Shown here piece by piece: positions 22,510 to 34,009 of a DNA stretch of 64,000 bases (position 1 is the stretch's first letter; each line of letters starts with the position of its first letter). The notes below the pieces were generated by a model that saw only the letters and a program-made list of their open reading frames with translations, was not told the origin of the DNA and did not search any database. Position numbers and translations under genes: made by a program. The DNA comes from an uncultured Pseudomonadales bacterium. Its GTDB lineage: Bacteria; Pseudomonadota; Gammaproteobacteria; Pseudomonadales; Balneatricaceae. The stretch covers positions 372,001 through 436,000 of the forward strand of contig CALSNA010000005.1 of NCBI GenBank assembly GCA_943787595.1. Direction: 5' to 3'.

Positions 22510-23334
22510 CTATCTGAGATTAGTTTCAATGTCGCTTACCAACTGATCAATCAGTTGGCGAGCAATAGAGAACTTAGGTGGCAAAATCGGTAGATTATCA
22601 ATAGAAAACCAGTTAGCTGCGGTAATTTCTTTGCCATCAACCTGAATGACACCACTCTGGTAAAGGGCGCTAAAACCAAGCATGAGAGAATGAGGGAAAG
22701 CCCAAGACTGGCTACCGTGATATTGCAAATCAGTTATTTGAATACCTACTTCTTCATGTACTTCACGATGAACAGCTTGCTCTACACTTTCTCCAGCTTC
22801 AATAAAACCAGCAATCGCACTGTAATAACCTGCAGGAAATTTAGTATTGTGGGCCAATAACAAACGATGATCACGCCTTACCAGTACAATCATACATGGT
22901 GACAAACGTGGATATTGCTCGTATTCACATTGCTGGCACTGTAGAACCATGCCCGCCTCATTCAGGTAAAGTTGTGCTGCACAACGGCCACAAAAACGAT
23001 TATTGCGCAGCCAGTGGGATAATTGTAAACCACGTGCCAAGACTGCTGCCTCAGCAGGTTTTGTATCCAGTAACAATTGTCTCGGTCGCCAAAGTTGATA
23101 ATGCAACATTAATGTTGCATTATCAAGCACCCTAAGGTAAACGTCCTGCTGATCCAAGCTAGCAATATAAAGTGGTTGCAATTCAGCAGAAGATGACACA
23201 GGTAACATAATACTAGCCAGCCAATTAGAACTATTTTGTACAATCTGGCCACGCCAGAGATGGAGGTAACGTCGCTCCAGTGGATAAGATATTCGTTCAC
23301 ACTTTGAACGTAAACGGAATAAAGGGAGCGGCAT
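22510..23334 (-). CDS. nudC: NADH pyrophosphatase (NAD+ diphosphatase, decapping enzyme)
   Basis: This Nudix hydrolase (274 residues) splits NAD(H) into NMN(H) and AMP and removes NAD caps from RNA. The zinc ribbon is C-G-R-C ... C-Q-Q-C at about residues 118-136. The Nudix box is GFIEAGESVEQAVHREVHEEVGI near 175. The motif that defines NADH specificity is SQSWAFPHS, compared with the family's usual SQPWPFPxS: two prolines have changed. The ATG at 23334 starts MPLPLFRLRSK. Inside the coding region lies a perfect 32-base palindrome (23095-23126) encoding DNATLMLHYQ. It stands alone, upstream-divergent to nhaB. Confidence 0.92.
   Translation of the reverse strand: MPLPLFRLRSKCERISYPLERRYLHLWRGQIVQNSSNWLASIMLPVSSSAELQPLYIASLDQQDVYLRVLDNATLMLHYQLWRPRQLLLDTKPAEAAVLARGLQLSHWLRNNRFCGRCAAQLYLNEAGMVLQCQQCEYEQYPRLSPCMIVLVRRDHRLLLAHNTKFPAGYYSAIAGFIEAGESVEQAVHREVHEEVGIQITDLQYHGSQSWAFPHSLMLGFSALYQSGVIQVDGKEITAANWFSIDNLPILPPKFSIARQLIDQLVSDIETNLR
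23095..23126. repeat. 32-bp perfect palindrome inside nudC
   Basis: TTGATAATGCAACATT is followed directly by its exact reverse complement, with no spacer. The symmetry stops at both outer flanks (G on each side). It lies in a poorly conserved stretch between the amino-terminal domain and the zinc ribbon, so it does not break the frame. In the mRNA it would form a long stem. Confidence 0.95.
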
Positions 23335-23455: not shown

Positions 23456-24955
23456 ATGTCAAATCAATCTTTACCTCAAGCACTGCTAAAAAACTTTTTA
23501 GGCAATTCACCCACTTGGTACAAGCAAGTTATAATTACTTTTTTATTGCTTAATCCATTGATAGTATGGCAAGCAGGCCCAGTAATTGCTAGCTGGATAT
23601 TAATTTTTGAATTTATCTTTACCCTGGCGCTAGCATTAAAATGTTATCCTCTGCAACCAGGTGGACTGCTCGCACTGGAAGCCATTGTCATCGGGCTGGC
23701 TGATCCCCATGGAGTCTACTACGAGGTTAAATCCAATCTTGCGGTTATTTTACTGTTAATGTTTATGGTAGCTGGCATATATTTCATGAAGGATATGCTA
23801 CTCGATCTGTTTACCCGTATTCTACTGGGAGTAAAATCGAAGCTACTACTGTCAATATTGTTTGTTGTGACAGCTGCATTCTTATCCGCTTTCTTAGACG
23901 CTCTGACCGTAACTGCTGTTCTAATAAGTGTCGGTGTTGGTTTTTATACGGTTTATCACCAAACGGTATCAGGTAGTTCATCAACCTATGATCGTAGTAA
24001 CGATGAGCACGTAAATGAAATTAACAGGGATGATCTAGAGCAATTTCGCGCTTTTCTACGTAACCTGATGATGCATGGTGCAGTAGGCACCGCACTAGGT
24101 GGCGTAACCACTCTAGTTGGTGAACCTCAGAATTTGTTGATTGCCGAAAAAGCAGGGTGGAATTTTGTAGAATTTTTCCTGCTAATGGCACCAATAACCA
24201 TGCCAGTATTTGTTGCTGGCGTAATCACGTGCTGGTTTCTTGAACATTTTAAATGGTTCAGTTATGGTGCCGTGCTGCCGGACAGTGTTCGCGTGATCCT
24301 ACAGGATTTTTCCGACAGAGAAACTGCCAAACGCAGTCGGCAAGATCAAGTTGCCATAATGGTTCAGGTCATAGTTGCTTTAATGCTGATATTTGCCCTA
24401 GCTTTCCACGTAGCAGAAGTGGGCTTAATCGGATTGATGATTATTATCCTATTGACTGCATTCAATGGTGTAACTGAGGAACATGACATTGGCCAAGCAT
24501 TTAAGGAAGCATTGCCTTTTACTGCCTTACTAGTTGTATTCTTTGCAGTAGTTACAGTAATTCATGAACAACACCTGTTCAGTCCCATAATTAACTGGGT
24601 GCTGACTTTGGATATTGACTTGCAACCTCAGGTGTTCTTTGTTGCCAACGGCATTTTATCTGCTATCAGTGATAATGTTTTCGTCGCTACTATCTATATT
24701 AATGAGGCCATGAATGCACTAAATTCTGGCATAATAGATCGTGCTCACTTTAATAACCTAGCAATTGCCATTAATACAGGCACCAATATTCCCAGTGTCG
24801 CAACACCTAATGGGCAAGCTGCATTCCTGTTCCTACTGACGTCAGCATTGGCTCCACTGATTCGTCTTTCTTATGGAAAAATGGTATTTATGGCCCTGCC
24901 TTACACCATTGTTATGAGTTTGGTAGGTTACTCAGCTATAGTATTTATGTTGTAG
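23456..24955 (+). CDS. nhaB: Sodium/proton antiporter NhaB
   Basis: This inner-membrane antiporter (499 residues, about 12 hydrophobic segments) expels Na+ in exchange for H+. The amino end [23 protein letters not shown] is typical. [16 protein letters not shown] and [15 protein letters not shown] near residues 140 and 220 and the late [14 protein letters not shown] and [20 protein letters not shown] near 400 and 440 are ion-transporter hallmarks of the NhaB family. It is intact and near the E. coli length. A long perfect palindrome follows the stop by about 70 bases and may end transcription. Such antiporters are usual in marine bacteria. Confidence 0.95.
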
Positions 24956-25025
24956 AAGCAGGTTTGGCAACGTAAACGCAGATTTCCCATATATCGCCAT
25001 TGATTATAACCTTAACCTTGAACAA

Positions 25026-25061
25026 TACCGTCCAACTGGCAGGCCTGCCAGTTGGACGGTA
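25026..25061. terminator. 36-bp perfect palindrome between convergent nhaB and dnaQ, probable bidirectional terminator
   Basis: TACCGTCCAACTGGCAGG is followed immediately by its exact reverse complement, giving 18 bp arms rich in G and C. It is followed by CTTTT on the plus strand but has no long T run on either side. Its place between two convergent genes suggests a shared terminator or transcript-end hairpin. The absence of any spacer and the perfect match are unusual for a terminator. Confidence 0.65.
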
Positions 25062-25105
25062 CTTTTATGGCATGGTTTTCAATATCAATTCAATATATTG
25101 TATAC

Positions 25106-25837
25106 CTAGAATGCCGTTAACCATTCGCAACGGCCACCTGATATTACCTGAAGTTGCTCCAATTTTCGTTGATGGGCTGCCTGTTCTTCAACAGACGCCC
25201 GAATTACTATTCCAACATCTGTTTTAACTGGACGCTGGCCTTGTTCATGTTCAAGCTGGTTAAGACTTGTCACAGATTCTGGCAGTGACTGTAACTTTAG
25301 ATCAGTCTGGCCACCAGTTATCGCCAGGTAAACATCGGCAAGAATTTTAGCATCCAACAATGCACCATGTAACTCACGGTGAGAATTATTAATGCCGTAG
25401 CGCCGACAAAGGGCATCAAGATTATTTTTTTGCCCCGGATGCTTAGCTCGAGCAAGCATAAGGGAATCAGTAATCTGGCAGTGCTGATCCAAGCTGATTT
25501 TCTGTTGCCGAGATGATTGAGCCCAAAGAGCCAATTCATGGTCAAGAAAGCCGACATCAAAGGGAGCATTGTGCATCACTAATTCAGCACCAGCAATAAA
25601 TTGAAGGAGCTCTTGTGCTACCTTGGCAAATATAGGTTTATCGGCCAAAAAAACATCGGTGATACCATGGATAGCCTGAGCCTCCACAGACACGGCACAC
25701 TGTGGGTTAATATACTGATGATAGGTATGGCCAGTCAGACGACGGTTAAGCAATTCAACACAACCTATTTCAATGATACGATCACCACGTGTATGATCCA
25801 GCCCAGTAGTTTCAGTATCGAGCACTACTAATCTCAT
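25106..25837 (-). CDS. dnaQ: DNA polymerase III epsilon subunit (proofreading exonuclease)
   Basis: This is the 3'-5' proofreading exonuclease of the replicative polymerase (243 residues). Exo I is VLDTETTG (Asp7, Glu9). IIEIGCVELLNRRLTG follows. Exo II is HNAPFDVGFLDHEL near residue 94, and Exo III is the HGALLDAKILADVYL segment near residue 160. The carboxy-terminal part, which tethers to the alpha subunit in the family, contains QLEHEQGQRPVKT and a final GGRCEWLTAF. It lies 28 bases downstream of rnhA on the same strand. In E. coli the two are adjacent but divergent, so this orientation differs while the neighbourhood is kept. Confidence 0.95.
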   Translation of the reverse strand: MRLVVLDTETTGLDHTRGDRIIEIGCVELLNRRLTGHTYHQYINPQCAVSVEAQAIHGITDVFLADKPIFAKVAQELLQFIAGAELVMHNAPFDVGFLDHELALWAQSSRQQKISLDQHCQITDSLMLARAKHPGQKNNLDALCRRYGINNSHRELHGALLDAKILADVYLAITGGQTDLKLQSLPESVTSLNQLEHEQGQRPVKTDVGIVIRASVEEQAAHQRKLEQLQVISGGRCEWLTAF

Positions 25838-33769: not shown

Positions 33770-33900
33770 GTGAGTGTGTTCCAGCAAACTTTACAAGGTA
33801 CAAGTCAGTTTATAAGACCTGAAGGCTTAGTTGCTTGCAATAGTTAGTTTTCCAGTTTTTATCCAATGTCTTACATTAACTGGACTAGTGTCGTTGTAAT

Positions 33901-33932
33901 TAAAAAACGCATTCAATGGAATGCGTTTTTTA
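33901..33932. terminator. Rho-independent terminator after hupB
   Basis: A 14-base perfect stem, TAAAAAACGCATTC with GAATGCGTTTTTTA around an AATG loop, ends in a T run on either strand. It sits about 80 bases after the hupB stop (minus strand) and 130 bases before ppiD, separating the two genes' transcripts. Confidence 0.85.
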
Positions 33933-34009
33933 AACCAACGAGTGGTATCAATATATCGACAAAGTTAATGGCATTGTCGGATCTGCCGCCTGTCACTACC
34001 TGTGTAGAC

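Follow-up and report, generated by a model that had tools for sequence, protein, structure and literature searches.

The closest described counterparts of a perfect palindrome between two convergent genes are bidirectional intrinsic (Rho-independent) terminators, i.e., GC-rich hairpins in short gaps between two 3' ends, and the products of template switching (quasipalindrome correction), which are perfect and unique stems. Monttinen and Loytynoja (2022, PMC8794818) described RNA hairpins that owe both their origin and their maintenance to template switching. In the mitochondria of Nematomorpha, genes have been reported to contain long perfect palindromes, and template switching was also proposed there (PMC6649704). 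REP elements are palindromic and high-copy (PMC3733652), and so are, in being palindromic, the elements of Rickettsia that PMC6649704 mentions. An excess of inverted repeats is known in bacteria and is strong in some genera (PMC4060949), and Buchnera and other endosymbionts are reported to have them at very high frequencies (PMC10434271). Judged by titles and the beginnings of abstracts, we found no report on point that joins intrinsic terminators with template switching.

The palindrome studied here lies in a 64,000-nucleotide stretch of DNA from an uncultured Pseudomonadales bacterium (the window). It resembles the bidirectional intrinsic terminators in being a GC-rich hairpin between two closely spaced 3' ends, a slot that holds an A/T-tailed hairpin in many relatives; it differs in that its stem is longer than most and is followed by short U-stretches, with no A/T tract at the base. 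With template-switch products it shares a perfect, unique stem, and two palindromes in coding sequence of the same genome have replaced sequence with no change in length; unlike the events of PMC8794818, a switch at this site would be read from the present sequence and not from an ancestral one. The Nematomorpha mitochondria offer a further parallel, with many unique perfect inverted repeats, including some in protein genes, in one lineage, but their repeats reach 284 bp (PMC6649704), whereas ours come from a bacterial chromosome and have arms of at most 25 bp among those sampled.

Read directly from the window, the 36 bp are identical to their own reverse complement, with no spacer, as an earlier note on this DNA had stated. 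They lie within a 150-bp gap separating the stops of two convergent genes, the stem beginning 71 positions past the end of the first and stopping 45 positions short of the end of the second (Table 1). Six perfect inverted repeats were found in the window (arm of at least 10, loop of at most 10), and this one has the longest arm; four have arms of at least 14, while 20 shuffles of the window under a first-order Markov model gave none with an arm of at least 12. The perfection of the palindrome is far beyond chance. The second perfect palindrome that the same note had placed 1.9 kb away is also there; it falls in a region of the protein that is variable among relatives. The genes, which we take to be nhaB, dnaQ and nudC, were recognised from their sequences rather than by comparison with a family library.

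Table 1. Features at and around the palindrome, in window coordinates.
Feature	Position	Strand	Basis
Perfect spacerless 36-bp palindrome, candidate bidirectional terminator of nhaB and dnaQ	25026..25061		sequence, fold, terminator slot in relatives
Weak short U-tail CTTTTATG after the stem, nhaB transcripts	25062..25069	+	sequence, terminator scan; terminator-type score +1.0
Weak short U-tail TTGTTCAA after the stem, dnaQ transcripts	25018..25025	-	sequence; terminator-type score +9.9
nhaB (Na+/H+ antiporter, by recognition), converging on the palindrome	23456..24955	+	reading frame, relatives' loci
dnaQ (DNA polymerase III epsilon subunit, by recognition), converging on the palindrome	25106..25837	-	reading frame, relatives' loci
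Second palindrome, 32 bp, also perfect and spacerless, within nudC (22510-23334, -); one of the genome-wide set	23095..23126		sequence, inverted-repeat scan

From either strand, the RNA is predicted to form a 16-bp stem with a four-base GGCC loop, at -33 kcal/mol (z -6.93) on the plus strand and -33.2 kcal/mol (z -6.59) on the minus strand, i.e., the stable GC-rich hairpin of an intrinsic terminator. The tails are less typical. The absence of a strong T run, remarked on in the earlier note, was confirmed, but short T stretches do flank the palindrome (CTTTTATGG on the plus strand and TTGTTC on the minus strand). On a d'Aubenton-Carafa-type terminator score, both sides were borderline positive (Table 1). 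For the 12 hairpins of two relatives (G001 and G003), 20 of the 24 strand scores fell within 13.6-56.0, while a tailed hairpin in the window, at 33900-33933, scored +3.2 and +5.9, a range similar to that of our palindrome. This latter hairpin is perfect, and its A and T tracts are those expected of a terminator, so tailed terminator hairpins also occur in this genome. The score is not specific, since a palindrome within a 783-codon frame (L205:15044) reached +14.0/+12.6. A terminator scan of the window listed the palindrome on the plus strand, among a total of 7 sites compared to 5.9 expected from shuffles.

To place the site among relatives, the best 80 of 112 nhaB loci from other bacteria were compared; the nearest named NhaB loci among these 80 belong to Oceanospirillaceae-type metagenome bins, Amphritea, Oceanospirillum and Marinomonas. 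dnaQ was convergent within 600 bp of nhaB at 43 of the 80 loci, after exclusion of one locus with a gap of 1124 bp (L097) and of 36 loci that did not have both genes in convergent order, some of them cut by contig ends. The nhaB gene was likewise convergent at 17 of the 29 loci of a second, partly overlapping set of relatives, a count that takes in one gap of 1029 bp (L036). A perfect hairpin with an arm of at least 8 was present in 30 of the 43 gaps and absent from the other 13, imperfect stems falling outside this count. By our own rule, under which some cases are borderline, 29 of the 30 hairpins carried an A4/T4 tract, either at the base of the stem or next to it; the one tract-free case was Marinomonas piezotolerans (L085). 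Given these hairpins, the nhaB-dnaQ site is a terminator slot, and our palindrome sits where an intrinsic terminator would be expected, close downstream of both gene ends and in a position kept in relatives.

Conservation between relatives, which the earlier note had proposed as a check, thus holds for the hairpin slot but not for the stem: the relatives' hairpins differ from ours in sequence and have the form alone in common. Homology to the GCAGGC..GCCTGC terminators of some relatives (e.g., L024, L031, L057 and L060) was considered, as the centre GGCAGGCCTGCC is similar, and was given no weight because the top-ranked NhaB relatives L047 and L053 carry other stems. The genus is represented by this genome alone in a comparison of 37 genomes, among which the best-scoring DnaQ from another genome was 57% identical. 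Of the readings left open in the earlier note, the atypical terminator is the one that these gaps support. A spacerless stem, by contrast, is nothing odd in this slot, with arms of 14-20 in relatives giving stems of 28 bp (L047, L053), 32 bp (L054) and 40 bp (Marinomonas fungiae, L088). As far as the sequences go, it is by its weak tails that the window's hairpin is set apart from its slot-mates.

Perfect dyad symmetry could also mark a DNA site for a dimeric protein, such as a regulator, a nucleoid protein or a recombinase. The symmetry is all that speaks for such a site; the position between two 3' ends, the single copy in the genome and the differing sequences of the relatives' hairpins, alike only in form, argue against it, and we regard it as extremely improbable.

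The earlier note had further raised the possibility of a mobile repeat unit and proposed a search for more copies of the arm. In a pattern search of the 2.28-Mb genome allowing up to 3 mismatches, the 16-bp arm matched exactly only at its own two arms. A further 14 places had 2-3 mismatches, compared to 4 for a reversed control, and none of them formed an inverted pair. An exact copy of the 24-bp core turned up neither in the genome collection nor among the viral contigs, from which very near records were possibly left out. We also sampled 864 kb of the genome (the window plus 40 further stretches), which held 30 perfect palindromes with an arm of at least 12 and a loop of at most 8. Compared with one another, these 30 showed no common 12-mer family; ten pairs had 8-mers in common, including our palindrome with L136:8183 (CAACTGGC), and the 12-mers of the arms had 0 to 2 additional copies each in the 864 kb, mostly 0. 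Insertion of a mobile palindromic element, REP-like or otherwise, into the nhaB-dnaQ gap would agree with the 36-bp size, the GC-rich stem and the extragenic place, with the CGTC near one end of the palindrome, a tag that PMC3733652 names in its title, and with the surplus of mismatched places over the control. REP elements, however, are high-copy (PMC3733652), while this palindrome, although palindromic and of similar size, has one copy in 2.28 Mb. Because of the single copy and the core with no exact match elsewhere, we rejected a dispersed or mobile repeat, for which the 30 palindromes likewise gave no family; the mobile-element reading is largely refuted, and we give it hardly any credence.

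The hint in the earlier note that two perfect palindromes so close together might matter proved fruitful, as unique perfect palindromes are in excess in the part of the genome sampled. Among the 30, 26 were free of A/T tracts under the rule used here (a slightly different rule gave 27 of 30 as not terminator-like), and 14 of these had a loop of at most 2, compared to 0.7 expected from three order-2 shuffles. The corresponding numbers (all, tract-free, and tract-free with a loop of at most 2) were 33, 9 and 2 in 800 kb from 14 relatives, and 55, 2 and 0 in the nhaB loci (579 kb); the relatives were sampled unevenly and have a GC content of 0.46-0.63, compared to 0.43 here. The binomial p for 14 versus 2 was 0.003, or 8e-5 with the nhaB loci added, both values being post hoc and from genomes that are not independent. 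With the window removed, since it had been flagged for its palindromes, the counts were 13 here and 2 in the relatives, each in 800 kb (p about 0.004, by hand arithmetic). Tract-free palindromes inside crude gene calls were also more numerous, with 11 of the 26 here compared to 3 in the relatives (p 0.017, post hoc). Class assignments follow the rule strictly: the CTTTT of our palindrome counts as a tract, so that it is outside the 14, L128:12139 is tract-free by the rule yet clearly represents a terminator whose stem is extended (a loop of 7 keeps it outside the 14), and L139:6844, one of the 14, consists of A and T only. The sampled palindromes thus have the perfect arms, the unique sequence and the frequency beyond chance of template-switch products.

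Two further cases deserve mention. The longest arm belongs to a 52-bp perfect palindrome (L146:7289-7340; arm 25, loop 2) that lies either immediately before selD or right where it begins. In the relatives, four of the nine tract-free palindromes are one repeat family of G018, with the arm GGGGTCAGAGTAGTCT and four copies in the 140 kb sampled (L158:5652, L158:6174, L160:8267 and L160:9812); this family is unrelated to the window's palindrome.

The excess bears on whether the palindrome could be a plain bidirectional terminator, its stem perfected by selection or chance alone and the genome-wide pattern irrelevant to it. Relatives do reach spacerless arms of 14-20 bp with A/T tails in the same gap, and they do so in nhaB loci that have no tract-free excess (0 with a loop of at most 2 in 579 kb). 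Against this stand the many other unique perfect palindromes of the genome, 11 of the 26 tract-free ones being inside crude gene calls, where termination would have no obvious purpose. We consider this plain reading possible but doubtful.

Palindromes inside genes can be compared with homologs arm by arm. For the argF palindrome (L201:17493-17530, arm 19), the mean identity to 20 homologs was 0.63 for the right arm (KNRVLG) and 0.09 for the left arm (HLIHDS), and the length through the palindrome was equal in 18 of the 20, with L236 being shorter and L237 having an insertion. For the algH palindrome (L193:7458-7492, arm 17), the left arm had a mean identity of 0.56 and the right arm 0.21 across 23 homologs, all 23 of equal length. 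An IolC-like protein (L202:9702-9727, arm 12) aligned to PDB 2qcv with no gap through the palindrome. A weaker algH palindrome (arm 12, loop 3) scarcely differs from the homologous sequences, and the variability of nudC precludes a judgement there. Judged from these alignments, the argF and algH palindromes replace sequence and do not insert it, as template switching between arms predicts (PMC8604942, PMC8794818). Flank conservation was 0.38 (left) and 0.94 (right) in argF and 0.51 (left) and 0.28 (right) in algH. In both genes the arm contrast tracks that of the flanks, so the less conserved arm may have been rewritten or may simply lie in a naturally variable stretch, and the pattern is suggestive, fitting template switching but not proving it. 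The same two genes bear on an assembly or amplification artefact yielding false perfect inverted repeats, which might be suspected because everything comes from one assembly in which palindromes are unusually frequent. Both keep frame and length through their palindromes, however, and the gene order across the nhaB-dnaQ site matches that of relatives, so an artefact seems very unlikely.

A cause of the excess was sought among hairpin-processing and repair proteins. Of the hairpin nuclease SbcCD, SbcD had no match in this genome, and SbcC one stray match only (E 4.9e-4, positions 3-51 of 1043). Of the three relatives sampled most deeply, both searches covered G001 and G003 but not G018. G001 and G003 likewise lacked an SbcD match and gave SbcC matches that were short only, and they had 0 tract-free palindromes with a loop of at most 2 in 120 and 140 kb; loss of SbcCD alone is therefore probably not enough for the excess. 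ExoI, ExoVII (XseA), RecJ, RNase HII and MutS were present by sequence searches, to which point defects are invisible. The crude coding density was 0.74, compared to 0.79-0.96 in relatives, and remnants resembling deoB and, by eye, deoA lie split over several frames at L136:16849-18271 (minus strand). From this low density and these broken genes, the genome seems to be eroding, and palindromes may persist in it under weak selection.

Together, these observations favour, with some reserve, an intrinsic terminator that serves nhaB and dnaQ alike, from both directions, and that probably owes its length and perfection to template switching. RNA polymerase arriving from either side would transcribe the very stable 16-bp hairpin and then a short U-rich stretch, and stop; alternatively, the weak tails would allow a partial stop together with protection of the message 3' end. 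The slot in relatives, the fold, the scan listing on the plus strand and a score just positive on both strands speak for termination at the palindrome, while the weak U-tails, the nonspecific score, a scan total near that of shuffles and the 13 of 43 gaps free of such hairpins speak against it. For its origin, we envisage that the imperfect stem of an older terminator became single-stranded and that the polymerase briefly templated one arm on the other, leaving exact complements; an eroding genome with no detectable SbcCD is a setting in which template switching perhaps perfected the terminator. A broader and more tentative reading, which we rate clearly lower, is that the lineage switches templates over short distances at a raised rate, or tolerates hairpins to an unusual degree, and so goes on producing unique perfect palindromes along its chromosome, in genes and gaps alike, with the nhaB-dnaQ terminator as one product. 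As SbcCD was found neither here nor in the two excess-free relatives, this broader reading needs a further cause.

By itself, the palindrome is most likely one more terminator hairpin, ordinary apart from its weak tails, and the perfect length of its stem may be one sign of a genome rich in template switches or tolerant of hairpins. If the excess holds up, the organism would be a natural case for how perfect bacterial hairpins arise and persist, and each palindrome in its conserved genes would set a conserved arm beside a rewritten one. Terminators would then be seen to be built or repaired by replication errors as well as by point mutation and selection.
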